The notes below the pieces were generated by a model that ran no database searches, was not told the origin of the DNA, and worked only from the letters and a program-made list of their open reading frames with translations. A DNA stretch of 23,388 bases from a virus, in the IMG/VR virus record IMGVR_UViG_3300030012_002854, positions 1 through 23,388 of that record; one strand, given 5' to 3'. The first letter of the stretch is position 1. Every line of letters begins with the position of its first letter. Below, piece after piece: positions 1 through 17,205 of this stretch. The position numbers and the translations under genes were made by a program.

Positions 1-999
1 ACTATCATCCAATAAATTTATATTTCGCTTTGTATGCTTGACCGTAGTGTTTAAAAAATGTTGTACATCAAAGCTTTCAGATATGGCATCAACTGCATCC
101 CAACCCTCAGGTTTACCTCTTGGTGGTGTTAATGTTGTAACCGATCTAGCTCCTGCATTTAAAGCCAGTTCCTGTACCAGTTCAGCTACCTTACGACCTG
201 CATTGTCATTGTCCCCCCATATGATAAGTTCTTTGTCCTGTAAAGGGCTAAAATCAAATCTACTGGCTGACTTACGTGATAACATCCCTGCACCACCCAT
301 AGTGCAGGTAGCAGTATATCCGATCTCATTTAAAGCATCAGCACACTTCTCGCCCTCAACCCATATGATTTTATCAGAAGCAACAATATTTGGTATGTTA
401 TACAATGGTCTAACATCAGGAATCCTTGGATATGGCGAGTCTGTAAACTGTCTAAACTCTTTCTTAGGCTTTCCATGACTATCCATAACTGGATTACCAA
501 GTTCATCTCTTATATTATATCTTCTGACACGGCATAATATTTCCCCATCACCTGACAGGTATAAATGTTCGGAGTCATAAGGTGTATTTACGTCAATAGC
601 TCTTTTAAATGTTATCCCTAATTCTTGTGGTATGTCTTGTTCAACTGGGGGTGGAGCCGTTTCGTCCAGATAATTTGCGAACAATTCTTTAATTTCAGGT
701 AGACGCATACCTCTACCTTCCATCAAAATTTTAACTATACCCCCGATACCTTGTGATCCGTTGAAGTCTGAACCCTTCATAAAATAAGGTGACCTTGGAT
801 TAATATCTATTTTAAGAGATTTACCAGCCTCTCCATCTAAAGACCCGATGGTGAACACGTCACCCCGAACAATTCCATGTGGAAATGTATTTTTTAATTC
901 ATCTATTTGCACACTGGCTGGAACTTTTTGACTTATCATATCGACTAGTTCATTGGCTGACATGTCTCTATTCTTATTGCCAAGTTTTATAATGTTCAT
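1..999 (-). CDS. Toprim-domain DNA primase (3' part off window)
   Basis: This reading frame is open for 333 codons and runs off the left edge, so the C-terminus is missing and any helicase domain would lie outside. It likely primes phage DNA replication. A Toprim fold is visible: the acidic motif WVEGEK around residues 213-218 (E215) and IWGDNDNAG around 260-268 with the D263/D265 metal pair, followed by KPEGWDAVDAI. The N-terminal segment around residues 80-115 resembles the part that follows the zinc finger in DnaG-type primases, but no CHC2-type zinc ligands are present. The ATG at 999 is preceded by GTGAGG at about 8 nt. It is the last visible gene of the leftward replication operon, 60 nt after the Fe-S nuclease. 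The Toprim call is firm; primase rather than another Toprim enzyme is inferred from motif order and context. Confidence 0.85.
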   Translation of the reverse strand, partial: MNIIKLGNKNRDMSANELVDMISQKVPASVQIDELKNTFPHGIVRGDVFTIGSLDGEAGKSLKIDINPRSPYFMKGSDFNGSQGIGGIVKILMEGRGMRLPEIKELFANYLDETAPPPVEQDIPQELGITFKRAIDVNTPYDSEHLYLSGDGEILCRVRRYNIRDELGNPVMDSHGKPKKEFRQFTDSPYPRIPDVRPLYNIPNIVASDKIIWVEGEKCADALNEIGYTATCTMGGAGMLSRKSASRFDFSPLQDKELIIWGDNDNAGRKVAELVQELALNAGARSVTTLTPPRGKPEGWDAVDAISESFDVQHFLNTTVKHTKRNINLLDDS

Positions 1000-1028
1000 T
1001 ATACTAACCTCACTTCATTGGCTGAAGT

Positions 1029-1060
1029 ATATGGGGGAGATGCTACCTTCTCCCTCATAT
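1029..1060 (-). terminator. 12-bp hairpin between nuclease and primase genes
   Basis: Positions 1029-1040 pair with 1049-1060 over 12 bp, including one G.U, around an 8-nt loop. The hairpin starts at the last base of the nuclease stop codon. No U-run follows on the transcribed strand, so it is more likely a 3'-end stabiliser, processing site or attenuator than a classical intrinsic terminator. Confidence 0.4.
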
Positions 1061-1767
1061 TAATTACTCCAACAACTATCTTGAAACTCACAATATTTAC
1101 AAGCAAAGTAATCACGAGACTGTGCTATACGTGGCAACATCTCATTTGCTTTTGTGGCTTCTAATATTAAAACTGCTTTATCACTGATCTCCTGTGCAAG
1201 GGCTTTGTTAAAAGGTATAAACTCATAATATATATCGCTTGTGTTTTTGTTTAATACTGTAAACAAACAAGGATTGTCTGTTAATTCCATATAAGCTTGA
1301 TACAATGCAACTTGTGCAGCATATACAGGATTAGCTATTGCTACACCTTTAGTTTGAAACTCTCTAAACTTTTTATCATTAGCTGACTTACACTCCCACA
1401 ACATGGGATATTTTGTTTCCAAAGGTCCACTACATATAACACCATCTATGTGACCTTTGACCTCTCCTTCTGCTATACTAAATCCAAATTGTTCGCCATT
1501 TTTATCCTGGACTCGCAAATCAAACCCAGCTTGTCTGAGCCAACCAGCCACACTAAATTCTATTTCGTGACCAAACTGAAATATACGTAGTGTCTTAGCA
1601 TCAAAGTCCCGATCATCATCAATAGCTTGACCCATATACCGATATTGTATCTTTCTGGAACAGGAGTCTCCTAAACTAGAAGCACCAATATATGTTCTTT
1701 TTTTGACTTCCTTATTCCGATCAACGATAGCTTTATCTATTATATTTGATATTTCCTGCTGTAACAT
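1060..1767 (-). CDS. Cas4/RecB-like PD-(D/E)XK exonuclease with Fe-S cysteines
   Basis: The product is a 235-aa nuclease predicted to resect DNA ends for phage recombination. The PD-(D/E)XK core is visible as H67 (FGHEIE), D108 (GHIDGV) and E125-x-K127 (WECKS). Four cysteines, C36 (GDSCSR) near the N-terminus and C223, C226 and C232 near the C-terminus, match the split arrangement that holds a 4Fe-4S cluster in Cas4 and AddB nucleases. The frame stays open upstream to 1863, but the extra residues lie over the preceding gene and look non-native. The ATG at 1767 sits 1 nt after the stop of the 71-aa gene, which fits translational coupling. It belongs to the same operon as the RadD-like helicase and Sak4-like ATPase. 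The fold call is strong; the Fe-S cluster is inferred from cysteine spacing. Confidence 0.87.
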   Translation of the reverse strand: MLQQEISNIIDKAIVDRNKEVKKRTYIGASSLGDSCSRKIQYRYMGQAIDDDRDFDAKTLRIFQFGHEIEFSVAGWLRQAGFDLRVQDKNGEQFGFSIAEGEVKGHIDGVICSGPLETKYPMLWECKSANDKKFREFQTKGVAIANPVYAAQVALYQAYMELTDNPCLFTVLNKNTSDIYYEFIPFNKALAQEISDKAVLILEATKANEMLPRIAQSRDYFACKYCEFQDSCWSN

Positions 1768-1768
1768 T

Positions 1769-1984
1769 TTAAAAGGGTATTTCGTCATCTTCGAGTATGT
1801 TTGAGTTTGGATTAAGGTCGAGAATGCCACTATTGTCTCCATTAGCTGATTGAATGGCATCAATTATGGCAAGAGCTTCGTCTCGTGTCAAATGCTGCAG
1901 TTTTTTATCCCAACCTATTTTTGCAAATTGTTCGGACAGTATCTTTAATGTATCGTGTCTGTCCCTGTTACCATGTTGTTCCAT
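1769..1984 (-). CDS. 71-aa protein ending in an SSB-like acidic tail
   Basis: The family is not recognised. The first 48 residues look helical and mixed-charge (DTLKILSEQF, LTRDEALAIIDAI). A short polar linker with several Asn follows, then the C-terminus LEDDEIPF. That ending closely matches the SSB C-terminal tip, which is DDDIPF in E. coli SSB and docks RecO, RecQ, RadD, PriA, exonuclease I and other partners. There is no OB fold: the protein is too short and lacks the usual strands. The start is supported by a strong GGAGGAGG stretch upstream of the ATG. It overlaps the 97-aa gene by 40 nt and is followed 1 nt later by the Fe-S nuclease. Its role may be to recruit host or phage SSB-binding enzymes. 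The tail is seen directly; its function is inference. Confidence 0.8.
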   Translation of the reverse strand: MEQHGNRDRHDTLKILSEQFAKIGWDKKLQHLTRDEALAIIDAIQSANGDNSGILDLNPNSNILEDDEIPF

Positions 1985-2238: not shown

Positions 2239-2506
2239 TTTTACCCTCTGCCCATAAAGCTCCGTATCCTATTACATCTATTGGATTATCCATATTTTTT
2301 GGATTCTGAGAGTCTCGAACAAGTTTTTGCACTATGCAAAATTTATATATGTCATCATAAGTAAGTTCTGCTTTAAGTTTATGTCTCCATAATACATTCA
2401 TAATTTTAGCTATTGACTCATGTGTATCTTTTGCATCTCCATGTGTCCTAGCTCTAGCTCCGTTAATTAATTGTTCGGCTTTTTGTAATGCTTCACTACG
2501 CTGCAT
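2225..2506 (-). CDS. DUF6378-like phage protein
   Basis: A 93-aa soluble protein resembling the DUF6378 family, common in phages of alphaproteobacteria and marine hosts. Recognisable features are the opening EQLINGARARTHGD (the family's 'HGDR/YGD'-type motif), a central helix with LWRHK and LTYDDI, and the ending IDVIGYGALWAEG, matching the family's 'D..GYAALA.E' end. Its biochemical role is not known to me. Three in-frame ATGs lie close together (2521, 2512, 2506). The last is chosen because the only good Shine-Dalgarno sequence, GGAGG at 2515-2519, is 8 nt from it but overlaps or crowds the others. It overlaps the helicase end by 11 nt. Confidence 0.75.
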   Translation of the reverse strand: MQRSEALQKAEQLINGARARTHGDAKDTHESIAKIMNVLWRHKLKAELTYDDIYKFCIVQKLVRDSQNPKNMDNPIDVIGYGALWAEGKSGKN

Positions 2507-4178
2507 TCTCATCTCCTCCATAATAATCTAAAACTCTGCCATCTATTTCTTTTTTGTTCCACAAGTAATTTAACCAACAAGCAGCTTTATACTTACTAAA
2601 ACTTAAATCTAACTGACTTACAATTTTGTTTTCTCTAGCCAAAGCCTCTCTTTGTTTATCTGTCATAGCTTGGTTGAGCCATCTTTTACCTTTCTTAGCT
2701 CCATCACTATCTTCAATTTCCCTCAAAAAATCATCAGCAGAAGCCAAAGCTTGTTCTTTGGTCCCAACACCTACAACTCTAAGTTTACCTCTTGTACGCT
2801 TAACTAAGGCTACAGAAACGTCATCTAAATGTGCTACTAAACCAAAACCATTAAATCCACTAGCCGACATGCACCTGCCATTGTTAAATAAATCAATCCA
2901 TCTAAACGGAGATCTGTCAATAAGATCAACCTCTGTCATCTCAAATGTCTCAAGCATCTCCTTTGCCTGCATCTCGATCTCATGTCCACACATAGGACAA
3001 ACACGAACACTCAAAGGTATAAGACATTTACAATTAGGACATACTTTCTCAGGTCCTGATCCTTGTTGCATTTTATCTTTGCCATCAAGATCAACACCCT
3101 CATCTAAAGATCCATGTGTCAATACACTCGTGCCAAAGTCTAATACAATGCAATCTTTTTTTATTATGCCAGGATGTGTCTCAGGATCTATTGTTCGCAA
3201 ACCACGACCAATCATCTGCACCATTGTGGATTTGTACGAACATGGTCTTGTAAGCACAATACAACTCACAGGTGGTGCATCAAATCCCTCTGTTAATACT
3301 GCAACATTAACCACGACTTGTACGTCACCATGTTCCAGATCATGCAGTATTTGTTTTCTTTCTTCCGATGGTGTCTCACCTGTGACAATTTCTGCACGGA
3401 TTTTAGATCTTCTAAACTCATCACACAGATCATGTGCATGAACTACTGTGCTACAAAATATAACTGTCTTTCTGTTTCCTGCTTTTTCTTGCCACTCCTC
3501 AACGATCTTCTCATTAATGGCACGTTTGTTCATGATCTGCTCGACCTGACCCATGTCAAAATCCGACACAGTTTTACGAACATTTTGTAAATCCTGCTGC
3601 ACCCCGACATCAATTACGAATGTCTTTGGTGGTACAAGAAAACCCTCTCGTATGAGATTAGCTATCTCGATCTGATGTGAGCAGTTATTGAACACACCTT
3701 TCAAACCTTTTCTATCTCCACGATTAGGTGTAGCAGTAAAGCCAACAATCTCAACTGACTCATTAGCTTCTTTAACTTTATTAATAATTCTGATGTATGT
3801 GTCTGCTATGGCATGGTGACTTTCATCTATCACCATCATGTCTACTTTAGACATATTAGCTAAATTGTTCGGTCTCGATAGTGTCTGCACCATGCTAAAT
3901 ACTGTGCTACCATCCCAGTTTTTTTCTGAAGCATCTACGATAGATGTAGATATTTTTGGATTAACACGAGAAAATTTGTTTTTGTTCTGTCCTACAAGTT
4001 CATCCCGATGTTGCAAAACTAAAATTTTTTTGCCTTTTTTGTATCGCTTACCAATCAATGCAGATAGCATAATTGTTTTACCAGCACCTGTTGGTGCTAC
4101 AACTATTGTGTTTTTGTGTTTGTCAAGTGCATCAGAAGCATCTTGTACTGCTATCTCTTGATATGGTCTTAAAATCAT
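2496..4178 (-). CDS. RadD/SSL2-like superfamily 2 helicase with zinc ribbon
   Basis: A 560-aa SF2 helicase. Motifs run in order: a Q-motif-like LRPYQ at residues 3-7, Walker A APTGAGKT at 28-35, Walker B/motif II DESH at 118-121, motif III GFTATP shortly after, and motif VI QMIGRGLR in the second RecA lobe. Two CxxC pairs around residues 385-405 (VCPNCK and VCPMCGHE) form a zinc ribbon, an arrangement also found in RadD (YejH)-type helicases. In E. coli, RadD acts in recombination and binds the SSB tail, which is notable given the SSB-tailed small protein two genes downstream. It probably remodels branched DNA during phage recombination-dependent replication. GAGA lies upstream of the ATG at 4178. 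A structured 104-nt leader separates it from the DUF669 gene. Confidence 0.9.
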   Translation of the reverse strand: MILRPYQEIAVQDASDALDKHKNTIVVAPTGAGKTIMLSALIGKRYKKGKKILVLQHRDELVGQNKNKFSRVNPKISTSIVDASEKNWDGSTVFSMVQTLSRPNNLANMSKVDMMVIDESHHAIADTYIRIINKVKEANESVEIVGFTATPNRGDRKGLKGVFNNCSHQIEIANLIREGFLVPPKTFVIDVGVQQDLQNVRKTVSDFDMGQVEQIMNKRAINEKIVEEWQEKAGNRKTVIFCSTVVHAHDLCDEFRRSKIRAEIVTGETPSEERKQILHDLEHGDVQVVVNVAVLTEGFDAPPVSCIVLTRPCSYKSTMVQMIGRGLRTIDPETHPGIIKKDCIVLDFGTSVLTHGSLDEGVDLDGKDKMQQGSGPEKVCPNCKCLIPLSVRVCPMCGHEIEMQAKEMLETFEMTEVDLIDRSPFRWIDLFNNGRCMSASGFNGFGLVAHLDDVSVALVKRTRGKLRVVGVGTKEQALASADDFLREIEDSDGAKKGKRWLNQAMTDKQREALARENKIVSQLDLSFSKYKAACWLNYLWNKKEIDGRVLDYYGGDENAA

Positions 4179-4282
4179 TTGTCTCTCATTGGCTATAATG
4201 GTGGGTAGTTTTAGGGCATCGCACTACCCAAGCGACTTGCAAGTAGACTAAGGTCAGTTAGCCCTTGCTATGCCTACCATCA
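4179..4282 (-). promoter_or_regulatory. structured non-coding leader before the helicase gene
   Basis: This 104-nt gap is the longest one inside the leftward replication operon. On the transcribed strand it can form an outer 7-bp stem (4276-4282 with 4196-4202), an 8-bp hairpin (4223-4230 with 4202-4209, 13-nt loop), a 4-bp hairpin (4248-4251 with 4258-4261) and a 10-nt palindrome (4235-4244). The 13-nt loop can pair with either of two upstream segments (4270-4274 or 4261-4265), which suggests a pseudoknot or a switch. It lacks a T-arm and anticodon arm, so it is not a tRNA. A cis-regulatory element or small RNA is possible. Confidence 0.45.
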
Positions 4283-4882
4283 TTACCTAGCCCAATCAGG
4301 TACTGCATTACCATTATTGGTAGGTGCAGGCGATGGAGTGACAGGTGCAGAACCACCACCACTTGGTATGTAACCTTCCATACCTTGTGTCATTATAATT
4401 CTGCATTTATTCTTATCAGCATATTGTGGATCGTTTGATTTCTCAATCCCAATCTTTACACAAACATTCATGCCATTGATAGAAGCAACTCCACCTTTTT
4501 GCATATCTATTTGTCTTACTGCTTGAGCCTGTGGTGAAGCATCCATTGCAGAAATGTCATTATGACTTTCTACTACTGCTTTTAACCATTGCAATCCAAT
4601 CTTTTTGGATTTAGATACACCACTATCATCTTTGGCATCGCCATCAAAAAAGTGATTAGTCCAAAATTTACGCTTGTCAAATTGACCACCAATTATAGTG
4701 TATTCAACTTCAAGCCACTTAGCTGATGTAGTTTGCGATGCCTTAAATATAGGTGTATTACTAAATTCAGGCATTGTTACTGCATTAGGTTTGATAGTAA
4801 TAATCGCTCTTGCGATAGTGCCATCAGGAATAAGTTCAAAATCAGAACCACCCCCATTTTCAATATTATTTAAATCAATCAC
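4283..4882 (-). CDS. DUF669-family putative ssDNA-binding protein
   Basis: A 199-aa protein resembling the DUF669 family found beside Sak4-type ATPases in many phages. Family-like features are the N-terminal GSDFELIPDGTIARAII, the middle WLEVEYTIIGGQFDKRKFW, the LKAVVESHNDISAMD helix and IGIEKSND...YADKNK towards the end. The last 35 residues are a flexible Gly/Pro/Ser/Thr tail ending VPDWAR, so it lacks the acidic IPF tip of classical SSB. DUF669 proteins are commonly regarded as SSB-like partners of phage recombinases; that role is inferred from family and context. It starts at GTG (4882), sharing GTGA with the Sak4-like gene stop, so the two are translationally coupled. Confidence 0.8.
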   Translation of the reverse strand: MIDLNNIENGGGSDFELIPDGTIARAIITIKPNAVTMPEFSNTPIFKASQTTSAKWLEVEYTIIGGQFDKRKFWTNHFFDGDAKDDSGVSKSKKIGLQWLKAVVESHNDISAMDASPQAQAVRQIDMQKGGVASINGMNVCVKIGIEKSNDPQYADKNKCRIIMTQGMEGYIPSGGGSAPVTPSPAPTNNGNAVPDWAR

Positions 4883-5742
4883 TGTACTTCCCCTTTCTGT
4901 GTTGGTTGTGATTGAGGATCAACAAATGTTAAATCCTTTTTCTGTGCAGATCCATTAAGCTTATTTATAAGTTTACCAAGATGTGGCTCTTCAATTACAT
5001 CAAGCTTACCTGATCTATCTTTGGCTGGGTATCCCCATTCGTTAAGAGTTTGACATACAAAAGCTCTATATGGTTGCACACCATCTGTACCACCCATAAC
5101 TGTCATTGTAATAACTTCATCAACAATTCCAGGTAGTTCTCGTGCAGTTTTAGAACCTTCAATTTGCAACTCGTAGTTGGTGCGACCATAGTCATCTATC
5201 TTAGAGTCAAGTATGCCAACTAATATAACATTCTTATCTCTAATATGTTGTAGATGTGTAAGCCATCCCATCATTTCTCTTCCGTGCATACCATAGGCAG
5301 CTCTAGTATCAACTTTACCAGACCTTTCTATGACATTATCAGGATGAGACATGCAGTATTGAAAACACAAACGTCCTGCAACTGTAATACTATCTACAAA
5401 TATAGTATCATATTTGTGCATTTGGACTAATTTGTCGCCAAACTCCTGCATAACTCTCTCATAATGGATATGGTCATAAGGCTCTCTTGACAAAGATGGA
5501 TTGACACCACCAATGTAACAAACAAAATCACGACACTCTTGCCATGTCTTAGGTCTAATTACATCAATCGGAAAATCCTTAATTGCAGTATCGCCTGCCT
5601 CAAGGTCAATAAATAAAGTCTTATCAGGATCAAGAGTGCGAGCAAGAGTTGTCTTGCCCACACCACTTTGACCACAGATGACCATCTTATGACCTCTTTT
5701 TTCTGCCATACGTTGCTCGGCAGTTATTATTTCTAAAGCCAA
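4879..5742 (-). CDS. Sak4-like RecA-fold ATPase (AAA_24 type)
   Basis: A 287-aa P-loop ATPase of the Sak4/AAA_24 group, predicted to promote single-strand annealing or strand exchange. Walker A is GQSGVGKT at residues 24-31, followed by the typical FIDLEAG strand. The Walker B-like strand is TIFVDSI, and the C-terminal half carries the strand NVILVGILDSK. The N-terminal TAEQRMAEKRGHKMVI is family-like. The start is TTG at 5742, with GGAGG (5748-5752) exactly 5 nt away and overlapping the previous stop; the first internal ATG would delete 11 residues and lacks such a site. Pairing with a DUF669 gene through a GTGA overlap is the classic phage arrangement. Confidence is high for a RecA-fold ATPase and moderate for Sak4 specifically. 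Confidence 0.87.
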   Translation of the reverse strand: MALEIITAEQRMAEKRGHKMVICGQSGVGKTTLARTLDPDKTLFIDLEAGDTAIKDFPIDVIRPKTWQECRDFVCYIGGVNPSLSREPYDHIHYERVMQEFGDKLVQMHKYDTIFVDSITVAGRLCFQYCMSHPDNVIERSGKVDTRAAYGMHGREMMGWLTHLQHIRDKNVILVGILDSKIDDYGRTNYELQIEGSKTARELPGIVDEVITMTVMGGTDGVQPYRAFVCQTLNEWGYPAKDRSGKLDVIEEPHLGKLINKLNGSAQKKDLTFVDPQSQPTQKGEVQ

Positions 5743-6177
5743 TTAAGCCTCCTCTGGTTGTACAAGATCAATATTTATTGTTCCTTGCTCGACAGTTCTG
5801 GCTGGCTGAAGCTTATCAATAATAGCTGGAGGAGCATTTGTATATTTTCTCTCTTCCACGGCATATGTCACTTTTGCATAATGCCTTGCATCTTCAGGGT
5901 CCATGCTATCGAAAGCATCTCGCAATGCCTGCTGATCCCATGTTACTTTTTTATTAATGGAAACCTTAACTTTATCTTCTTGTTCAGAAAATATAGTAGT
6001 TGTACCAAAGTCTTTACCTTGTCTCTGTAAATCTTTATGAGCATCGTTAAAGAACCTTGCTGACAAAAGACTGTTAAGCTCTTCCATCTTCTTTTTTTGT
6101 CGATCAATCTCCTGCTTTAACAAGATCTTCTCCTGTAAAAGCTGCTGATCGTTCATGTCATAGAAATTCTGTGCCAT
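5743..6177 (-). CDS. hypothetical coiled-coil protein, first gene of recombination operon
   Basis: A 144-aa protein of no recognised family. Residues about 8-40 form a charged, Leu/Glu/Lys-rich coiled coil (LLQEKILLKQEIDRQKKK). A middle part with beta-type segments (TTTIFSEQEDKVKVSI) is followed by WDQQALRDAFDSMDP and a helical AKVTYAVEERKY. The ATG at 6177 is chosen over the more upstream start at 6240 because GTGAGG lies 5 nt before it and because the upstream codons overlap the promoter. It is the first gene after the strong leftward promoter and ends by overlapping the Shine-Dalgarno region of the Sak4-like gene. Position suggests an early accessory recombination or regulatory protein. 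Confidence 0.75.
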   Translation of the reverse strand: MAQNFYDMNDQQLLQEKILLKQEIDRQKKKMEELNSLLSARFFNDAHKDLQRQGKDFGTTTIFSEQEDKVKVSINKKVTWDQQALRDAFDSMDPEDARHYAKVTYAVEERKYTNAPPAIIDKLQPARTVEQGTINIDLVQPEEA

Positions 6178-6217
6178 ACTAACCTCACTTTCGTTAAAAT
6201 TTCTACTTGCAAGGTTA

Positions 6218-6245
6218 AATATAGACATCATTACATACATGTCAA
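6218..6245 (-). promoter_or_regulatory. strong leftward sigma70-type promoter for replication operon
   Basis: On the minus strand a perfect -35 TTGACA (6240-6245) and a -10 TATATT (6218-6223) are separated by 16 nt. An A-tract of 8+7 A (6260-6275 on the plus strand as T) lies upstream of the -35 like an UP element. The predicted start is near 6211, leaving a leader of about 34 nt before the ATG at 6177. Confidence 0.72.
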
Positions 6246-6313
6246 TACCTAAACTATCATTTTTTTTATTTTTTTACTTGCAATATAAATATATTGTATT
6301 ATGTATTGTAGTA

Positions 6314-7126
6314 ATGATTGCAAAAGCAATTGAAAAATCCAATCAGTCAATGGAGGAAAAATTGGACAAAGACAATAAAAAAAATAAGAAAGATAAGAAT
6401 AAAATTCATATCACTACTGATTACAATTTGTTTACTTATCTTGTTGGTAATAGAGATATAGTAGACAAACATGTCAAAGATTTATCTTCTCAAATAGATG
6501 AAAGAGATCTTAATATCCCTATTATTGTAAATGAAAAAATGGAAGTATGTGATGGTCAACATAGACTCGAAGCTTACAAAATTTTAGGATTGCCAGTTCA
6601 TTATATAATAAAAGAGGGTTTAACTCTTCAAGATATAAGAAAGTTGAACTCTGTTAATCGTAAATGGACTATGCACGAATATATGATGTCTCACTTTAAG
6701 TTAGATGCTGAGCATTATATTACCTTAGAATGGTTTGTTAGAGCTTTTGGTTTTAGTGTATCAGACTCACTTGCTATGCTTAATGGTAAGGGTTATTTAG
6801 ATCAACACGACTATCGTGAATTTCGTGAGGGTGGTTTTAAGGTACATGATTTAGAAAAAGCCAAAGAGATAGCCAATGCCATTATATGGATAGGTAATTA
6901 CTTTGATAAATGGAAAAAGGGTAACTTTATTCGTGCTATGATTTCAGTTATGAATGATAAGTCCTTTGTATGGTCAATATTTAAAAGAAGGGTAGAAAAC
7001 TTTTCTGCTAAATTGACTAATCAAGGTAGTAGAGATGACTTTATTATAATGATTGAAAGACTTTATAATTTTAAAACTAGTCCTGATAAAAGGATTAGAC
7101 TAAAGATTTATGGCAAAAGGTCGTAA
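6314..7126 (+). CDS. ParB/Srx-fold (ParB-like nuclease domain) protein
   Basis: A rightward 270-aa protein, one of only two plus-strand genes. After a Lys/Asp-rich N-terminus it has a ParB/sulfiredoxin-like domain: LSSQIDERDLNIPIIVN, then the signature VCDGQHRLEAYKILG at about residues 78-92, then LRKLN/NRKWT-type residues. The C-terminal half is helical and unrecognised. ParB/Srx-fold proteins may be CTPases, nucleases or DNA-binding regulators, and no helix-turn-helix was identified with confidence. The start is uncertain: ATG 6314 lacks a ribosome site, while TTG at 6362 has GGAGG 5 nt upstream, the same architecture as the TTG-started Sak4-like gene, and would give 254 aa. It is divergent from the recombination operon, so a regulatory role is plausible. 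Confidence 0.82.
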   Translation: MIAKAIEKSNQSMEEKLDKDNKKNKKDKNKIHITTDYNLFTYLVGNRDIVDKHVKDLSSQIDERDLNIPIIVNEKMEVCDGQHRLEAYKILGLPVHYIIKEGLTLQDIRKLNSVNRKWTMHEYMMSHFKLDAEHYITLEWFVRAFGFSVSDSLAMLNGKGYLDQHDYREFREGGFKVHDLEKAKEIANAIIWIGNYFDKWKKGNFIRAMISVMNDKSFVWSIFKRRVENFSAKLTNQGSRDDFIIMIERLYNFKTSPDKRIRLKIYGKRS

Positions 7127-7130
7127 TTGG

Positions 7131-7154
7131 TATAGTAATTGCAAAGTTACTGTA
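7131..7154 (+). terminator. hairpin after the ParB-like gene
   Basis: Positions 7131-7138 (TATAGTAA) pair with 7147-7154 (TTACTGTA) in an 8-bp stem with one G.U and an 8-nt loop, 4 nt after the stop codon. No U-tract follows directly, so the terminator role is uncertain. Confidence 0.3.
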
Positions 7155-7213
7155 TCAGGATGATTTGCCACTACCATTGAGAAGATGTGTAAAAAAATTC
7201 TTGATATAAGGCT

Positions 7214-7246
7214 CATACAGAGGGGGTAAAGACCCTCTCCTGTATG
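7214..7246. terminator. 14-bp hairpin between convergent genes
   Basis: Positions 7214-7227 pair with 7232-7246 over 14 bp, with a single bulged C (7240), one G.U and a tight AAAG loop. It sits between the 3' ends of the convergent ParB-like and DUF1064 genes, where a bidirectional terminator is expected. Neither side has an adjacent U-run. Confidence 0.5.
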
Positions 7247-7260
7247 ATTCTACCTGGAAA

Positions 7261-7641
7261 TTACCGTTTATTTTTGTAAGAAAGATGTATATCTATACCG
7301 TGTATAGCTTTCATCATTTTCTTTTTTAATTTAAATTCAGGTGTCAAAACACCTTTTGCATCCTCAACAATTAATTTAGAAAATCCATCCTCTTCCTGCT
7401 GCAGGTATCTAAAATCAGCAATGTAATCACAAATTTTAATATCGTTAACAGATAATTCGTATTTTATTTGACGTTCTAATTCGGTAACAACACCAGCTCT
7501 TTCCATAGCTTTTAATTGTCCCCACCTTTCTGCCTCCCACTTTGAATCAAATTTTAAACCAAAAGCTAATGTTTTTTTTGCAAAATACTTATTGTTGCTT
7601 GTTCTGTTCTTTTTGGGTATAAATGGGTATGAATAGGTCAT
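7261..7641 (-). CDS. DUF1064-family PD-(D/E)XK nuclease
   Basis: A 126-aa phage protein resembling DUF1064, a nuclease-like family related to Holliday-junction resolvases. It shows the N-terminal KFDSKWEAERW helix (E36 or E38), then D76 in YIADFRY and the catalytic-type strand VEDAKG (D94-x-K96), followed by the basic helix FKLKKKMMKAIHGI. It could resolve branched phage DNA before packaging or cut host DNA. The only usable start is the ATG at 7641, which has no Shine-Dalgarno sequence. A candidate promoter ends 6 nt before it, so the mRNA may be leaderless. Its start lies 12 nt from the divergent ribbon-helix-helix gene. Confidence 0.82.
   Translation of the reverse strand: MTYSYPFIPKKNRTSNNKYFAKKTLAFGLKFDSKWEAERWGQLKAMERAGVVTELERQIKYELSVNDIKICDYIADFRYLQQEEDGFSKLIVEDAKGVLTPEFKLKKKMMKAIHGIDIHLSYKNKR
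7595..7623 (+). promoter_or_regulatory. candidate rightward promoter for the RHH gene
   Basis: A -35 TTGCTT (7595-7600) and a -10 TATAAA (7618-7623) are spaced by 17 nt, inside the start of the DUF1064 gene. A GGAGG (7642-7646) follows, 7 nt before the ATG at 7654. The -35 is weak. Confidence 0.35.
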
Positions 7642-7647
7642 GGAGGT

Positions 7648-7676
7648 AGTATAATGACAGATACAACAAAATTCAA
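7648..7676 (-). promoter_or_regulatory. candidate leftward promoter giving a near-leaderless DUF1064 mRNA
   Basis: On the minus strand a -35 TTGAAT (7671-7676) and a -10 TATACT (7648-7653) are separated by 17 nt. The -10 ends 6 nt before the DUF1064 ATG (7641), so the predicted start falls at the start codon. It lies within the first codons of the divergent RHH gene. Confidence 0.4.
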
Positions 7677-7866
7677 GTCAGTTGGTTTAGACATCGAAAG
7701 TTATGAAAAACTTCAAAAAATAACCAAACATCAAAGAAGAAACATTAGACAACAATTAGGACTTATGATTGATCAGGAATTTAAAAAAGAAGAATATAAC
7801 GATTACAGAGCTAAAGTTACCAGTTTAGGATTAGGTGCTATCAACAGCCTTCATACGAGAGACTAA
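7654..7866 (+). CDS. ribbon-helix-helix-like small protein
   Basis: A 70-aa rightward protein with an Arc/MetJ-type ribbon-helix-helix pattern: the strand KSVGLD, helix 1 YEKLQKITKHQ, the basic turn RRNIRQ, and helix 2 QLGLMIDQEFKKE. It is expected to be a dimeric DNA-binding repressor. GGAGG (7642-7646) lies 7 nt before the ATG. It is divergent from the DUF1064 gene with only 12 nt between start codons, and its 3' end overlaps the lysozyme 3' end by 36 bp in a convergent fashion. It probably controls its own overlapping promoters or a late/early switch. The fold call is from pattern only. Confidence 0.75.
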   Translation: MTDTTKFKSVGLDIESYEKLQKITKHQRRNIRQQLGLMIDQEFKKEEYNDYRAKVTSLGLGAINSLHTRD

Positions 7867-8280
7867 TCTATTTGCACGATTAGGAACTTGCTTGTGCCAT
7901 TTTGAATCTTCCATTTGTACTGCAGCTTCTTGCCAATCTCTCTCAGCCACAGCTTTACATAATCTTCTAAATTTGGATAATCTTGGTCTGCCCAGGTTGA
8001 ACATCATATTGGCTAAAATCTGCTGCACTTCTTCTGGAAGATCCTGAAAGTTACCGAATAATTGTTCGCATTCTTCTATTGTTACCTGGACATCTTTATC
8101 AAACAATTCGTTGACACGTTCTTCTGATACTGGTGTGCCTACTGGTTTGTCGTACTCTTCATCCCACTCTGTCAGCAAATGCCCAATTCCTACGGTCTTC
8201 AAATTTAAATGGTCCAAATACACGGAATTTACACAGCCCTCATCAATTTTAAGGGTATCTCTTAATTGTTCTATGTTCAC
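7831..8280 (-). CDS. T4-type lysozyme (GH24 muramidase)
   Basis: A 149-aa peptidoglycan muramidase closely resembling T4 gene e lysozyme in layout. The catalytic triad is visible as E14 (IDEG), D23 (YLDH) and T29 (KTVGIGHLLT). The family features NMMFNLG and the C-terminal KWHKQVPNRANRLVSRM are also present. No signal peptide or signal-anchor is seen, so release would need a holin not present in this window, or delivery within the virion. It starts at GTG (8280), sharing GTGA with the stop of the 1062-aa internal protein gene. This coupling hints that it may be made with virion proteins. The last 36 bp overlap the convergent RHH gene. Confidence 0.93.
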   Translation of the reverse strand: MNIEQLRDTLKIDEGCVNSVYLDHLNLKTVGIGHLLTEWDEEYDKPVGTPVSEERVNELFDKDVQVTIEECEQLFGNFQDLPEEVQQILANMMFNLGRPRLSKFRRLCKAVAERDWQEAAVQMEDSKWHKQVPNRANRLVSRMKAVDST

Positions 8281-11200
8281 GGATTACCTCTTGTTCTTTG
8301 TGCTATTGCTATGTTCTGTGGACTAAGACCCAAGGAAAAAGCATTAGCTGGATTAGATATGTTTATACCAGCAAGTTGAGTTCCTGCTGCTGGTGGATTT
8401 ATATTAGGAGCTGATGCAGTCAAACCTCTTGCTTGATTAACTCCTGCTCTCGCTTGATTAATAGCTGGTCCTAATTGTTGAGTTACATTTCTTATTTGAT
8501 TTTTTACACCAGAGCTTTCTAAAACAGCATCAACTTGTTTCTCTGCTTCGTTTATAGCGTTATCAATTGTTTGACCAGTTGATTGACTTAAAGCTTTACC
8601 AATAATAGATCCAAGGCTTTTTGCTCTCTCATCAGGTCTCTTAAATTGTTTTAGAGTTATGCCATTATATTGAGATATGATGTCATCATAGTAGCTTTGT
8701 GATAACATTCTGTTACCTAATATTGTAAACTTTGCAAGCTTACCTATATTTTGAAATGGTGACGCAGCTATATTCGCTGCAACAAGATCTCCACCTTCTG
8801 CTGCTCTTGCATTGAATTTTAGTATTTTACCAAACTTTTCCATACTTTCACCAACGCCACCAGGAAAAATTGTTCGGAGTTTACCATCTGCTGCAGCGTC
8901 TAAGATTCTATCTGCAAAAGCATTTAATGACTTGCCATCTGTCATAACAGACTCACCAAAGTCATCAATCATGCTATTTATATAATAAGCTCTAATTTTT
9001 TGTAATCCTGCATCATTTTGATTTCTGGTAAAGTAATTAATTATAGGTCTTATTTCAGAATTTTTAGTTTGTTTTTGTACTAAAAATCTTGCAGCTTCTA
9101 ACGGATCTAGATCTAATGTTTCATCTTGTAATTTATTTATAATTCTATTTTTCTGTTCTCTAGCTAGTATTCTTTGAGTTACAGCAAGACCCTCCATCCC
9201 CTGTAACAATCCGTTTATACTTTCAGTGCCACCCTCTCCAACTGCATCTCTGTATTGGTCTAAAACATTTCGAGCTTGCAGACCTGATATTTTTACGCCA
9301 CCTATCTCATCTGCTAACTTTAATATGTCATTTGTTTTGTCACCGAACAATTCTCTTGCTGTTGTGCCAAGACCTTTTACAGCCATTGCAAACTTTGCAC
9401 CATTAAAGTCTTTAACATTTTTAAAGTTTTTAATTCCTGATGTTTCTATAGCGTCTTCTAAAAACTGATTACCTGCTCTAGCAATAAATTCGTCTGCTAA
9501 CTGATCACCAGTTTTAACAGTATCATCTAGACCTTTTGCACCTGTTCCATACTCTCTTAAAAAATCTGTTGCCCTTTTTAGAAATTGTGGATTATTTGGT
9601 TTTACAACATTTCTGTAAATATCAATATTCATAGGTGCTTTATCGAGCTCACCTGGCATAGTTCTATATTTACTTAAATTTTTAATTGATTGTGAGGCGT
9701 ATAGATCTTCTAAAATACTTCTACCTTCAAAAAAATCATTTTGTGCATCTTTAATTGTTTTACCAGCTCTTCTAAATTTATCTGGCGATATACCTATATT
9801 ACCCAATCTCCCAGACAAATCTCTAAAAAGTTGACTGTTTTGGTCTCCCATTTGTTTAAACATGTTGTCAACTTCGTCTAACAATCCTGTGCCATTTACG
9901 TTTGTAAGTTCTTGTTTTACAGTATCATTTGAACTCATTCTTAAATCGCTAAGAGTTTTTCTTAAATTGTAGAGTTGATTAAATGATATATCTTTTGTCA
10001 ATCCATCATCTAACTTTCCACCAACTGATTCAAAAGCATCTATTATGTTTTCAAATGCTTTACCATCAGCGTCTCTTGCAGCTATTTGTGGAGCGTAATC
10101 ACTTTTTATTCTTTTGAGATGATCTTCAAAATTATTGATAAACATAATACCTTGACGACCTAATCCAGCATCATCTCTTAAAATATCATCAACAGCTCTA
10201 AATTTACCTGATATAAATATATCAAATTGATCTGAAGCATTCTTGAATATAGTAAATAAGTCATCATCCACAGAGCTGTTTTCGTCAGCAGCTCTTCTAA
10301 AAACGCCAACTGCACCTTTCATTTGCTCAATAATCCGTCTTTGTGCGTCTTTTTCAGCTCGTATCAATTGTTCGTTGTTATCGACCATACCTCGTTTAAG
10401 TATTTGACCAACGTCTACAGCGTCAGCTCCTTCTAAACCAAACTTTTCTTTATAAGCGTCAATAACTTGCTTAATAACATCATTATTATTTTTTAATCTA
10501 TCTGATGTTTTAAATATTTTCTCACCAATTGCTTGTATTCTTGCCACAAGAGATGGTGCTCTGATAGCTGACAATGTAGGCTTTACACCAAAGCCACCTC
10601 GAACAACTGTGCCGTCTTCTTTTGTAACAACACGATTTACTGCAGCTATTTTTTCATCAGCAGATAATTTTGCAAAATCTGCTGGTTTAATTACATTACC
10701 AGCTTCATCAATTGGTGGTGATGTTGACAGTCCTGCTGTGTCTAACTCAGTTGCAGTAAGATCCTTACCTGGCGTAACTCCTCGTCTAACAGCTCTAAAA
10801 GCACCTGCAGCTAAACCGAATGTTAAATCGCTAACAAAACCTATACCAGCTTCTTTAAGAACATCCATACCGACTTCGCCAATGTCTTGCTTTTGTACAC
10901 CAGTAACAGCCTCTCCCAATTCTTCTACAGCTTGACCACCACCAGCTCCAATTGCAGCTCCAATAGCACCACCTACTATTGGTAAAAATGGTAAAGCAAT
11001 TTGACCAGCAATAGCTCCACCTACGCCACCAACTAACTCTGGTGCTATGCCTGCAAGATCAGAAAAGTCGTATTTACTAAAACCTTCTTCATCAACAAGA
11101 ATATTTCTGTCTGTTTCTTGTCCAAACTTAGCTGCACCAGTAGGTGTAAGAGCTAATCTACCTCTATTATCTCTTAAAAAATCATCGTCATTAAGATCAA

Positions 11201-11465
11201 ATTTACGAAGTATTGCATCTTCTTCTTCATTTGTTTCTGCTACACTCAATGCAGAACGCAAAGCATTACTTCTTATACCAGTGCTAGAGTCGAACAATTG
11301 TTCGAGTTTATCAGCAGTATTTGGCTCTTCTTTTGATATTAATTGTCCAGCACCTGATTTTCTAATTATATTATTTATTTGAATTGATTCTTCAAACGTA
11401 GGTTTGTCACCTGCTATAGTGATGTTTATTTTGCCTTGTGGCGTATTTAAAACAACTTTACCCAT
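8277..11465 (-). CDS. large internal virion / DNA ejection protein, 1062 aa
   Basis: A very large structural protein, placed where podoviruses encode internal core or ejection proteins, between the tail nozzle group and lysozyme. Residues about 135-185 form a Gly/Ala-rich hydrophobic stretch (LVGGVGGAIAGQIALPFLPI, then GAIGAAIGAGGG) that could insert into a membrane during DNA ejection. The rest is mostly helical and charged. No transglycosylase motif was recognised. It starts by abutting the upstream stop (TAAATG) and ends with a GTGA overlap into lysozyme. It contains the only perfect 14-bp CGAACAATTGTTCG palindrome in the window (11291-11304). The role is inferred from size, position and hydrophobic segment. 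Confidence 0.7.
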   Translation of the reverse strand: MGKVVLNTPQGKINITIAGDKPTFEESIQINNIIRKSGAGQLISKEEPNTADKLEQLFDSSTGIRSNALRSALSVAETNEEEDAILRKFDLNDDDFLRDNRGRLALTPTGAAKFGQETDRNILVDEEGFSKYDFSDLAGIAPELVGGVGGAIAGQIALPFLPIVGGAIGAAIGAGGGQAVEELGEAVTGVQKQDIGEVGMDVLKEAGIGFVSDLTFGLAAGAFRAVRRGVTPGKDLTATELDTAGLSTSPPIDEAGNVIKPADFAKLSADEKIAAVNRVVTKEDGTVVRGGFGVKPTLSAIRAPSLVARIQAIGEKIFKTSDRLKNNNDVIKQVIDAYKEKFGLEGADAVDVGQILKRGMVDNNEQLIRAEKDAQRRIIEQMKGAVGVFRRAADENSSVDDDLFTIFKNASDQFDIFISGKFRAVDDILRDDAGLGRQGIMFINNFEDHLKRIKSDYAPQIAARDADGKAFENIIDAFESVGGKLDDGLTKDISFNQLYNLRKTLSDLRMSSNDTVKQELTNVNGTGLLDEVDNMFKQMGDQNSQLFRDLSGRLGNIGISPDKFRRAGKTIKDAQNDFFEGRSILEDLYASQSIKNLSKYRTMPGELDKAPMNIDIYRNVVKPNNPQFLKRATDFLREYGTGAKGLDDTVKTGDQLADEFIARAGNQFLEDAIETSGIKNFKNVKDFNGAKFAMAVKGLGTTARELFGDKTNDILKLADEIGGVKISGLQARNVLDQYRDAVGEGGTESINGLLQGMEGLAVTQRILAREQKNRIINKLQDETLDLDPLEAARFLVQKQTKNSEIRPIINYFTRNQNDAGLQKIRAYYINSMIDDFGESVMTDGKSLNAFADRILDAAADGKLRTIFPGGVGESMEKFGKILKFNARAAEGGDLVAANIAASPFQNIGKLAKFTILGNRMLSQSYYDDIISQYNGITLKQFKRPDERAKSLGSIIGKALSQSTGQTIDNAINEAEKQVDAVLESSGVKNQIRNVTQQLGPAINQARAGVNQARGLTASAPNINPPAAGTQLAGINISNPANAFSLGLSPQNIAIAQRTRGNP

Positions 11466-13412
11466 TTATCTTTTTGTCAAATCTATATTTATTGTGCCAT
11501 CTCCACCAACAGAAAAATTATAAAGATTTTCTGTGCCAGTTGAAATTGCTTTTTGAATTATAGCCATAGTTTTATTATATTCATCATCATTTCTGTAATT
11601 TTCTCTTTTTGAGAAAGCATTAAATTGACTTTCTATAGCTCTTTGTGGTGCAGCAAATATTTGTGAAAGTTGATCTAGTCTATTTAAGTTTTCAGCTAAA
11701 GGTTGTCCGACTTTAATTTCACCTATTAGTTGTTTTAATCTCTTTATATCTCCCTCAGATACACCATTTCCTGTTTCTTTTGTTAGAAATTTTTTATACT
11801 GAGATATTAATCTGTCTTGAATTGCTGCTATTTTTTGTTCAGGAGTAGTTCCTGCATCAATTATTTCTGCCACTCCTTTTGAATAATCGGTATCTCCTAT
11901 ACCTAATGGTTTTAGAACACTAACCACTCTATCTTTTAAAAGTGCGATTGCAGTTGAGTCGTTAGCTTTTCCTACATCTTGGAGTATTCTTTGTACTTCA
12001 CCTATACTATTTTGTGCCTCTAAAACATTAACATATTGTTCAGCATGTTTCTGTGCCTGTTGTACAGGTGCTAAAAATACTCTGTTTCTAGACCCAGTAA
12101 CAAAAGCTGTATCTACCTTAAGAATATTGTTTCCATCAAGTGTTTGTGTTGTCACTTTACCTTTTGCATCTATAGGTTTCATATCATTTTCAAGTAACTT
12201 AATCTCTACATTGTTTCGGTGTTTTAAATATTCTAATTGTTGTTTGTTTTTAAAATCTCTAAACTCTTTTGATACAGCAGCTAATGCAGCTCTTTTTTCT
12301 TTAGCTAAAGCTAGTGCAGCTTTCTGATCTGCCTTCTGTTCTTGTAATGCAAATCTACCAGCAGCTATTTGACCAGCTCTTGCCTCTTTTCTAGCTGCTT
12401 CAAATTTAGGTAATGCCTCTTGACCAGCACGACCAACTTCGCCAAGTATGTTGGATAAGTTAAAACCTTTACCAGCTCTGTTTTGCATCAGTGATAACCC
12501 TAATGCCATGAGTGCAGCTCTATTGTCAGGCTCTCCTGATATATCTATACCTGTTGCCTTTGCAAAGTCTTTTTTGTAATCATCAATAGTTTTTGTTTTT
12601 CTTACTTCTGTGCCATCACCATACATATCTTCTATATCTTTCATAGCATCTGCGAACAATTGTTGTTGTGCAGCCTTCTTTTTTACTTCGGGATCATTTA
12701 CTGCTTTAAGCTCTTCTTCTGTGTATGTATCTGTGTAATCAAGATCTTCATCAGGTGCTGATGCTATGTCAGTTTCTCTTTCTGCTGCAATTTTTGCTAT
12801 TTCTGCTTCAGGGTCTTGAAATTGTGGTGATGATTTTTCGTCAACGCCAGGTGTTGTTTCTTTGTCTTTTCCTGCACCAATAGCAAACTCATCAACTTGC
12901 GATTTTTTTTCTTGAGCTTTTATTTTTGCTGCTTCTCTTTCTGCTAAAGTTTGTCCTATTATCGGATTAGGACCTAGAGCACCTCTTGGAGTGCCAGTAG
13001 CTAAGTTTATTGTTTTATCTGTGGGCAATCCAAGTTCCATGCCACCTGTGCCAGTTGCCATGCGTTGTGCTTGTTTTTTTCTTCCTAATTCAGTAAATAA
13101 TGGATCAGTTAATGCAGTTCCTGTGGTTGATACCAAAGCATCTATTGGAGTTTTAATTCCTTTGTAAACATTACCTAATGCTTGAGGTATATTTAAAAAA
13201 CTTTCACCTAATATAGAAGCACCTTGACCAAGAAGAGTATCAGCATCTTTACTACCTAGAGCACCAGTGTAATCTTTAAATCCAAGAACATTTAAAAACT
13301 CTTGATTTTGATCTGCTTGTCTATTTAGTTCTTTTAAAAATTGTGAACCTAAATTTCTTTGGGGGACTAATTGATCTACTAATCCTTGTGATAATGTTTG
13401 CTTTGGAGCCAT
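11466..13412 (-). CDS. putative internal virion protein, 648 aa
   Basis: A 648-aa protein of no firmly recognised family, second of three consecutive ejection-type genes. The N-terminal 100 residues are helical (FLKELNRQADQNQEFLNVLG). A long acidic, low-complexity stretch (residues about 185-260, rich in Glu and Asp) follows. The segment GLSLMQNRAGKGF near residue 305 and the helical GEVGRAGQEALPKFE are typical of marine-phage virion proteins. A long Ala/Lys/Glu coiled coil spans about 335-410. No signal or membrane segment is seen. AAGGTAG precedes the ATG at 13412. Structural role is inferred from context. Confidence 0.65.
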   Translation of the reverse strand: MAPKQTLSQGLVDQLVPQRNLGSQFLKELNRQADQNQEFLNVLGFKDYTGALGSKDADTLLGQGASILGESFLNIPQALGNVYKGIKTPIDALVSTTGTALTDPLFTELGRKKQAQRMATGTGGMELGLPTDKTINLATGTPRGALGPNPIIGQTLAEREAAKIKAQEKKSQVDEFAIGAGKDKETTPGVDEKSSPQFQDPEAEIAKIAAERETDIASAPDEDLDYTDTYTEEELKAVNDPEVKKKAAQQQLFADAMKDIEDMYGDGTEVRKTKTIDDYKKDFAKATGIDISGEPDNRAALMALGLSLMQNRAGKGFNLSNILGEVGRAGQEALPKFEAARKEARAGQIAAGRFALQEQKADQKAALALAKEKRAALAAVSKEFRDFKNKQQLEYLKHRNNVEIKLLENDMKPIDAKGKVTTQTLDGNNILKVDTAFVTGSRNRVFLAPVQQAQKHAEQYVNVLEAQNSIGEVQRILQDVGKANDSTAIALLKDRVVSVLKPLGIGDTDYSKGVAEIIDAGTTPEQKIAAIQDRLISQYKKFLTKETGNGVSEGDIKRLKQLIGEIKVGQPLAENLNRLDQLSQIFAAPQRAIESQFNAFSKRENYRNDDEYNKTMAIIQKAISTGTENLYNFSVGGDGTINIDLTKR

Positions 13413-13421
13413 ATTTCTACC

Positions 13422-14345
13422 TTACTTAGAATTTGTACCACCAAAAGGTGCAATCTGTGACAATGTTGTATAAGCTCCAACACCTTGTAAAAATGGGTTT
13501 GCACTAGGCATTGTGGCTTGTTGAAATGTTGATGGCATTGAAGCACTAGGCATTCCTTGTAATAAATTTTGTCCGAGTTGCAATCTTGTAAATGGTTCTT
13601 GTGCTTGTGACAATAAGTTTGCTCGATTAGCATCTAATTGTGCCTGTTGTTGTCCTTGTCTTAATGCACCAAGTTGAGATAGTTGTGAAACATCTGCTTG
13701 ACCTAAAGCTTGTTGTAATCTGCCAATATCACTTGTTGTACCAGCTAAAGTTCCAAATGCTTGACCAAGACCACCTGATAATCGACCTGCATTTTGTGCT
13801 GCTTGCAAAGCAGTTGTAAAGCCTTGTGATAATAATCTTGATAGGGTATCACCCTTAACTTGTTGTAATCCTCTCTCTGTTTCAGCTCTTTGGACTCCTT
13901 CTCGTGATCCACCAAATGCACCAGATCTGATAGCTGCTGCATCTGCTCCAGCTCTTCTCATGTCAGCTTGCCTGTTAAGCTCTCTCATGGAGGCATCAAT
14001 AACCTGCTGTTGAAAAGGATTTTGAAATTGTTCGATAGCCTCTGGCTGTAAAAATTGCAATCCTGATGTAAGTGCTTGCTGTGCAGCTAAAGTTTGATCT
14101 CTTGCACCTTCTATGAACGGTCTAAATGATCCAGTTAGGTTTTCTCCTAACGTAATTGCCTTTTGTCTTAATGGGTCCATACCAGCAATTTGAAACCCAG
14201 GAAGATTTAAGGGAGTATCAAGTAATCCTGGCGATGTTTGATCTTCACCATCAAATATACCAAAAGCTGATTGTAATAATCTTTTTTGCAATCCCTCTAA
14301 AAAAGGGGGTAATCTTTGTATATTTTCAACTGTTTGTGTTGACAT
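13422..14345 (-). CDS. putative internal virion protein with FGGSRE motif, 307 aa
   Basis: A 307-aa Gln/Ala-rich helical protein of a type often seen near podovirus and siphovirus tail genes. Family-like marks are the opening ENIQRLPPFLEGLQKRLL, the segment FQIAGMDPLRQKAI, then NPFQQQVIDASMRELNRQ at about residues 108-125, then AAIRSGAFGGSREGVQ at about 137-152. A long Gln/Leu/Gly-rich helical region follows. It may be a DNA-ejection component analogous to T7 gp14, but homology was not established. The ATG overlaps the preceding stop (TAATG), with AGAGGG upstream. It contains many Gln codons, giving spurious open frames on other strands. Confidence 0.68.
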   Translation of the reverse strand: MSTQTVENIQRLPPFLEGLQKRLLQSAFGIFDGEDQTSPGLLDTPLNLPGFQIAGMDPLRQKAITLGENLTGSFRPFIEGARDQTLAAQQALTSGLQFLQPEAIEQFQNPFQQQVIDASMRELNRQADMRRAGADAAAIRSGAFGGSREGVQRAETERGLQQVKGDTLSRLLSQGFTTALQAAQNAGRLSGGLGQAFGTLAGTTSDIGRLQQALGQADVSQLSQLGALRQGQQQAQLDANRANLLSQAQEPFTRLQLGQNLLQGMPSASMPSTFQQATMPSANPFLQGVGAYTTLSQIAPFGGTNSK

Positions 14346-15145
14346 TATGCCCTCTTCTCTAAGTTATCCATCAAGTTGTATGCTCTTTGTATGCCTTTAC
14401 GTGAATTACCATCACCTAATCCTTTAACAGCATCTTTTGTCAAAACAAATTCACCAGCCATTAACATTGCAGGAACATCATCTTTTGTTCCTGATCCTTC
14501 AGATGGATCTATGCCACCAGTTCTTCTAGGAAAATCCATTATATTACCACCATCTGCAGCGTATGTTATGCCACCTATTCTTCCACCAGGTCCTCCTGCA
14601 CCAAATGGTCTTTTTTCAAATGCTGTTCGATTATCAGTTGGCTCATCACTTCCTGATAATAATTGAGCTAACAGACCTGCAGTTAAACCCTCACCCATTG
14701 GTGTATTTAACAGTCTTGCCAATAAATTATCGCCACCAACACCAGCAGATTTAAGCAACTCTGCACTAAATGTTCTCGGTTTAAAAGTTTCAGCAATTCC
14801 TTTAGTTGCTGCCTCTGTTGGAACTGAACTCACACCCATTTTCGCAGCAATTTCTGGGTTACCAGCTACTGTTCTTGCTCCAGACTGAGCAATTGTTCGG
14901 TTTGCAGCTTGACCAGCAGCCTGTTCTGCACCACCAAATTTATCAAAAGCAGCACCACCAACACCTGCAATCAACGCATCTCTTAAAGCATCTTTAGTTT
15001 TGCCACCCATTAATTTAGAAGTTAAAGCTCCAGTAACAGCTCTTTGAAAGAAAGGACTCATGCCAGTAGTGCCAAGTGCAGCAGGTCCTAAAAACGCTCC
15101 AATAGCAATGGGTGCAACAGATTTTAATAACTTACCTAAACTCAT
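14345..15145 (-). CDS. virion-associated protein with PAMLMAGEFVLTK motif, 266 aa
   Basis: A 266-aa protein. The N-terminal half is Ala/Gly-rich and hydrophobic (VAPIAIGAFLGPAALG, then RDALIAGVGGAAFD). The C-terminal part has DDVPAMLMAGEFVLTKDAV, a motif common in marine-phage virion proteins of this position and in some tape-measure proteins, followed by a helical RAYNLMDNLEKR. Its exact role is unknown; a membrane-interacting ejection component is plausible. The ATG at 15145 lies 13 nt from the AGG of an AGGTTAGT box (15154-15161), which is rather far for a normal ribosome site. Confidence 0.66.
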   Translation of the reverse strand: MSLGKLLKSVAPIAIGAFLGPAALGTTGMSPFFQRAVTGALTSKLMGGKTKDALRDALIAGVGGAAFDKFGGAEQAAGQAANRTIAQSGARTVAGNPEIAAKMGVSSVPTEAATKGIAETFKPRTFSAELLKSAGVGGDNLLARLLNTPMGEGLTAGLLAQLLSGSDEPTDNRTAFEKRPFGAGGPGGRIGGITYAADGGNIMDFPRRTGGIDPSEGSGTKDDVPAMLMAGEFVLTKDAVKGLGDGNSRKGIQRAYNLMDNLEKRA

Positions 15146-17204: not shown

Positions 17205-17205
17205 T

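Follow-up and report, generated by a model that had tools for sequence, protein, structure and literature searches.

Why should a single nine-letter word recur on both strands of a viral genome, within genes of different function and in nearly every codon register? This question is raised by IMG/VR record IMGVR_UViG_3300030012_002854, whose positions 1 to 23,388 were analysed as a whole (hereafter the window) and which represents part of a marine podovirus genome of ~54 kb. The word, CGAACAATT, has 15 exact matches in these 23,388 bases, 5 on the plus strand and 10 on the minus strand, with the first at 678 and the last at 14891; because the copies at 11291 and 11296 overlap and together form a perfect palindrome of 14 bp, the matches correspond to 14 loci. 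The observations presented below point, with somewhat better than even probability, to a half-site of a phage-encoded transcription regulator, probably a ribbon-helix-helix (RHH) protein, which would act at early promoters and have extra half-sites across the linked module.

Excess of the word and selection on DNA

Dinucleotide shuffles of the window give an expected count of 0.15 with a maximum of 2, a third-order Markov model of the window gives 0.24, and the reversed word, used as a control, has 0 matches. In 500 codon-preserving shuffles of the 28 complete genes, a mean of 0.94 and a maximum of 4 copies were obtained as compared to 13 observed, and CGAACAATT tops all 8- and 9-mers of the window in over-representation. 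The sites use five of the six codon registers and are of mixed orientation, 10 lying on the coding strand and 5 on the template strand. An earlier sequence-only reading of the window had described 14 sites on both strands from 678 to 14891, a chance expectation of about 0.3, the use of five of six registers and two empty stretches (3872-8059 and 14900-23388), all of which were borne out, and the excess stands against both the third-order Markov and the codon-shuffled models that it had named as a check. A second over-represented 9-mer of the window, TCTGTGCCA, is present 7 times with 0.27 expected, a figure obtained without a control for codon usage.

Enrichment in close relatives, another of the proposed checks, was found in their full records, with 39 copies in 54.0 kb (G003), 45 in 52.7 kb (G011), 35 in 54.8 kb (G038) and 47 in 58.4 kb (G054). 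Conservation of the sites was then measured in orthologous genes of seven word-bearing relatives, using only positions where the protein is unchanged. At such positions 8/8, 11/12, 5/6, 8/10, 7/7, 9/10 and 6/7 sites are kept in the seven relatives, with a background 9-mer retention of 0.28-0.52 in the same test and p values from 0.011 to 0.0001, while the sister clade (G005 and G030) has retained none of the sites seen in the window. Selection thus acts on the DNA beyond what the protein explains, as the sequence-only reading had proposed from the variety of encoded peptides, and this follows both from the codon shuffles and from the excess retention at unchanged-protein positions.

Palindromes at early promoters and the cluster next to terS

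The 9-mer constitutes one half of the palindrome CGAACAATTGTTCG, which defines the full sites, and single half-sites are common. The core CGAAC(A) is constant and its flanks vary with the clade, being CGAACAATT in clade W, A[CG]CGAACA in clade V, with dyads such as CGAACAATAGTTCG, and CCCGAACA in clade X. The position of the core was examined relative to 133 sigma-70-like promoters, each followed by a ribosome-binding site and a start codon. In 62 of these promoters the nearest CGAACA precedes the -35 box by 40-100 bp, overlap with the promoter is seen in only 3 of 133, and control words show no peak at 40-100 bp in the same set. Following strict de-duplication to 97 distinct promoters, 48 retain the nearest CGAACA within this upstream interval of 40-100 bp, mostly as the full palindrome. 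The distances pile up near 46, 55, 65, 75, 87 and 96 bp, corresponding to a period of ~10.5 bp (R = 0.51 at 10.5 bp), and 0 of 2000 jittered sets were phased as strongly. Such ~10.5-bp phasing is the signature of a protein that acts on the polymerase from a single helix face. The idea of the sequence-only reading that the word is a protein-binding site therefore holds as far as the palindrome, the clade-specific flanks and the helical phasing are concerned.

The main cluster of sites falls a short way beyond the window on its primase side, where the sequence-only reading could not see it, and occupies the non-coding spacer immediately 3' of terS. Over the initial 500 bp past the terS stop codon the density reaches 10.3 sites/kb in the W clade and 7.0 sites/kb in the wider set, as compared to 0 in the 500 bp preceding this stop. 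Over the following 3-4 kb the W-clade density is 2-3/kb, the early-gene side carries ~0.5-2/kb, and values are near zero beyond +4.5 kb in the terS-aligned set. The spacer that holds the terS-adjacent array is non-coding, measures 400-550 bp and terminates with an A-rich tract and the strong TTGACA/TATATT promoter of a small gene, and comparable spacers precede other small genes. GC skew around the cluster does not switch, and it therefore gives no evidence of an origin.

From these features, a molecular programme can be proposed in which the full CGAACAATTGTTCG sites would bind the regulator. These sites precede the strong sigma-70-like promoters that serve small early genes, lying behind an A-rich tract and ~45-96 bp ahead of the -35 box. 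RHH dimers each read one asymmetric half-site and two dimers fill an inverted pair. Since the sites are upstream and on a preferred helix face, the regulator could touch or remodel RNA polymerase while leaving the promoter itself uncovered. Additional full and half-sites fill the early-gene spacers, above all the one 3' of terS, and the single half-sites retained in genes of the early, replication and 1062-aa-protein module may supply additional protein for cooperative binding, looping or roadblocking. Bound regulator would then either activate or shut off the early genes.

Two further elements were noted in the relatives. A conserved intergenic CGAACAATTGTTCG palindrome followed by a T-run is found at 1536-1549 in G003 (L247), at 13754 in G011 and at 45531 in G038, 3' of a strongly conserved structural gene and outside the early module. 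At 5100-5195 on the plus strand of G003 (L245), a TTGACA/TATATA promoter followed by a hairpin and a T-run was recognized by eye as a likely small RNA of ~60 nt, whose loop TTTTCCTTTCC could pair with the GGAAAGGA ribosome-binding sites of neighbour genes.

Distribution over the window and the module boundary

Within the window, the primase gene contains half-sites at 678..686 (plus strand, template strand of the gene), kept in 6 of 6 aligned word-bearing relatives with the flanking amino acids differing in 5, and at 866..874 (plus), kept in G011 and G020. All further half-sites up to the helicase gene are on the minus strand and lie in the genes for a Cas4-like exonuclease (1487..1495; kept in 7 of 7 word-bearing relatives compared), a DUF6511 protein (1926..1934; 6 of 6 relatives aligned), a DUF6378 protein (2469..2477; G011 and G020) and a DEAD/ResIII helicase (3863..3871; 7 of 7 word-bearing relatives). 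By word count, the block at 3872..8059 with the genes for SSB, Sak4, the ParB-like protein, DUF1064 and the RHH-like protein is free of sites, and its SSB-Sak4-RHH part (window 4283-7866) lacks CGAACAATT in six of six genomes (the window, G003, G011, G038, G053 and G054). Sites resume in a lysozyme-like gene (8060..8068, minus; 7 of 7 word-bearing relatives) and in the gene of a 1062-aa protein that adjoins structural genes and has no PHROG match, where half-sites at 8868..8876 (minus), 9344..9352 (plus) and 10366..10374 (minus) were identified by exact match and comparison with relatives. The same gene harbours the complete 14-bp palindrome CGAACAATTGTTCG at 11291..11304, formed by two overlapping half-sites that are both kept in G003, G011 and G028. 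The half-site at 12653..12661 (plus) in a 648-aa protein gene is poorly conserved and kept in G039 only, and those at 14026..14034 (minus) in the gene of a 307-aa protein, DNA ejection-like by PHROG, and at 14891..14899 (minus) in a 266-aa protein gene are not conserved.

No site is present in the remaining structural, oxygenase and adhesin module (14900..23388), whose nozzle gene and neighbours are common to word-free phages. A right-hand gap of at least 8.5 kb has P = 0.002 for 14 randomly placed loci, and any gap of that length P = 0.027. Eight relatives (G006, G033, G036, G031, G023, G032, G022 and G026) contain 0 copies of CGAACAATT; they have the nozzle and other structural genes in common with the window and do not have its early and replication genes. 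Because relatives with the structural genes and without the early and replication genes carry none, the word belongs to the early module. The empty right-hand 8.5 kb is an exchangeable structural module common to word-free phages, in line with the suggestion of the sequence-only reading that this gap could mark later-acquired modules.

The nozzle protein of the window is ~28-37% identical to those of HTVC023P-type pelagiphages and of Roseobacter phages CRP-901/902, and this distant likeness extends in CRP-902 to the helicase. HTVC023P differs in having only a divergent RHH protein, a different terS array and no word, and the 50 kb of HTVC023P or CRP-902 that were searched contain no CGAACAATT. 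No near-identical phages were found in INPHARED, and the close relatives of the window are IMG/VR contigs. A gapped-dyad scan of the word-free G006, HTVC023P, G033 and G036 found no equivalent palindrome family. Among the side observations, tandem CCCCGAA repeats are present near the terS side of the word-free G036 (L276, 11735-11763 and 12702-12744), and the early region of an unrelated 62-kb phage, G056 (L313-L315, 9200-17060), contains ~13 palindromes of the type TTAGACGTAATTACGTCTAA at ~500 bp spacing, a candidate for another phage-wide operator, in addition to four CGAACAATTGTTCG copies.

Candidate reader, competing explanations and known systems

The sequence-only reading had named a ParB-fold protein among the possible readers, and this part did not stand. 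The ParB-like gene (6239..7126, plus) is absent from the word-rich G003 with its 39 sites and from the likewise word-rich G020, G028, G009 and G007, and is kept at 57-74% identity in word-free genomes. An XRE/helix-turn-helix (HTH) protein encoded between the array and terL was also rejected, as it was not found in G051 and G052 despite 66 and 23 copies of CGAACA, respectively, and as the recognition helix of this protein differs greatly between loci that have the word in common. DUF1064 and a phrog_2480-like protein have the same distribution as the RHH-like protein among phages, and to our knowledge no sequence-specific binding is known for either. The 70-aa RHH-like protein (7654..7866, plus), supported by alignment, co-occurrence and weak RHH profile matches, is favoured as the most likely candidate reader because it is the sole remaining protein of the module with the look of a sequence-specific DNA-binding protein. 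All word-bearing genomes that extend over the region encode a homologue, whose putative strand carries a conserved K-[FY]-[KR]-S; word-free relatives have W-K-S. Profile matches are to MatP_C in two distant members (E=0.017 and 0.041) and to RHH_5 for the G006 homologue (E=7e-5), all below the curated cut-offs, and to HP0222 (E 0.72). The helicase (~49% identical) led to 80 mostly alphaproteobacterial loci, 70-78 of which contain Sak4, SSB, the exonuclease and the primase; no RHH protein was found in them and CGAACA is not enriched (1131 against 1055 expected).

Several points weigh against a promoter-acting RHH regulator. The RHH fold is weakly supported for the member in the window itself, for which AlphaFold2 gives a poor monomer model (pLDDT 65). 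Nor is this protein distinguished by co-occurrence, since TerS and DUF1064 are also missing from the 80 loci. Divergent RHH relatives with different strand residues occur in the word-free G006 and HTVC023P, and L057 and L061 have a sister-clade RHH protein with little CGAACA enrichment in the portion covered. Many of the cluster loci were collected because they bear the palindrome, so that the proportion of site-bearing promoters (62/133 and 48/97) is inflated, which should affect the phasing less, and homologous promoters are not fully independent even after de-duplication. The least explained part is the presence of coding half-sites far from promoters, which an operator role alone does not account for.

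A bolder proposal, which we regard as tentative and rather unlikely, would cover these half-sites as well. The small RHH protein would organise and at the same time co-regulate half of the phage genome, with the palindromes serving as enhancer-like operators and the codon-embedded half-sites over ~20 kb allowing it to loop or coat the module, in effect a macrodomain organiser combined with stoperators. Still less probable is an architectural role in the first place, with the RHH protein bridging or coating the early half as MatP does on matS and with promoter phasing being secondary. The occurrence on both strands and in five registers, the conserved single half-sites over ~20 kb, the density gradient from one cluster and the best Pfam hint, the sub-threshold MatP RHH domain, would suit such a role. 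Promoter-proximal phasing points instead to transcription, the rest of the genome, its other half, is nearly devoid of sites, and bridging would be an analogy.

Marginally less likely again is the packaging signal that the sequence-only reading had listed, namely a pac signal read by TerS with the scattered weaker copies marking phage DNA as packageable. In W and X loci the densest array does follow terS immediately on the 3' side, terS adjoins it wherever the cluster is covered, and TerS homologues, with an HTH-like N-terminus conserved in word-bearing phages, are present in word-bearing genomes covering the region; none was found in cellular genomes by alignment search. This option is disfavoured by a second short-repeat array that terS has directly upstream, at 8012-8260 in G003 (L245) and with equivalents in ~40 other terS loci. 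That array is purely local and its word varies with the clade (ACTTACC, ACTTGCA, TACGTCAA, TAACGTTA, CCGGTAA, ACGGTAA or TGGGTAA), and it is found in most word-bearing and also in some word-free relatives, in the latter as GTGTAAC in G036 and CTAGGAA in HTVC023P. It may be a pac or TerS site with co-evolving specificity and, judged by its position and words, appears a better pac candidate than the CGAACA array, which is missing from word-free terS relatives. Moreover, promoter-phased palindromes and coding half-sites up to ~20 kb away would be unexpected for pac. The splice-like ACTTACC had raised eukaryotic contamination of the GC-rich contigs; this was ruled out, as the words are those of the terS-upstream array and the contigs encode the same early genes.

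Quite improbable is the reading of the palindrome by a host LexA-type repressor, which would make early gene expression responsive to DNA damage. The SOS box of Gram-positive bacteria reads CGAAC-N4-GTTCG. Letter for letter, CGAACAATTGTTCG matches the core of the dnaE2 SOS box in M. tuberculosis (PMC8607333). Against this, the flanking T of the longer TCGAAC-N4-GTTCGA form of the box never precedes CGAACA in clade V and is not preferred in the other clades, sites rarely overlap promoters (the 3/133 given above), the GC content of the phages spans ~0.35-0.57, and the helicase relatives in cellular genomes are mostly alphaproteobacterial, suggesting such a host. Alphaproteobacterial LexA reads GTTC-N7-GTTC, which also counts against LexA as the reader. 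The least credible option is the Chi-like signal of the sequence-only reading, acting on the phage's own Cas4-like exonuclease, helicase and Sak4, for although the 9-mer may be taken as a single asymmetric word on both strands and recombination genes are always present in word-bearing genomes covering the region, the 80 loci with the same module are unenriched, orientation in genes is mixed and the palindromes are phased to promoters.

Among known systems, the nearest analogue of the operator favoured here is found in Cluster A mycobacteriophages such as L5 and Bxb1, whose Rep repressor binds up to ~30 asymmetric stoperators genome-wide, some at the early promoter and with a clade-specific consensus (PMC6550527). 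Both systems have many copies of one asymmetric site per phage genome (15 in the window and 35-47 in full-length relatives). Stoperators, however, are 13-bp sites mostly oriented with transcription and read by an elongation-blocking HTH immunity repressor of temperate phages, whereas the present word occurs on both strands (10 coding, 5 template), often inside codons, is concentrated ahead of many early promoters, also as inverted pairs, and has a 70-aa RHH protein as its candidate reader. RHH repressors such as P22 Arc, pSM19035 omega, CopG and MetJ place one dimer on each short asymmetric half-site, and the occurrence of half-sites singly and as inverted pairs is shared with them; known members have one or few operators, while a genome of the present group has 35-47 sites, with a phased placement at 45-96 bp ahead of promoters. 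MatP/matS resembles the present case in its scattered sites and RHH-type protein, the MatP_C match being sub-threshold, and differs in that matS is a 13-bp palindrome of the bacterial Ter region and not a 9-bp phage half-site clustering at promoters. The Gram-positive LexA box shares the CGAACAATTGTTCG core and differs in flanks, position relative to promoters and likely host. A literature search for the palindrome retrieved, among the matches listed, one relevant paper, on mycobacterial LexA, and no description of the word in phages was found.

The word is thus probably a new form of scattered phage operator, whose regulator would be small, virus-encoded and previously undescribed. It is unusual for a phage to combine operators in helical phase upstream of many early promoters with selected sites embedded in codons. 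For abundant uncultured marine podoviruses this provides a readable regulatory code, in which the word labels the early cluster, allows contigs to be assigned to the module and directs attention to one small unannotated protein as the candidate regulator, while its absence marks module boundaries and reveals the exchange of structural and early modules. The timing of early expression in such phages thereby becomes testable from sequence.

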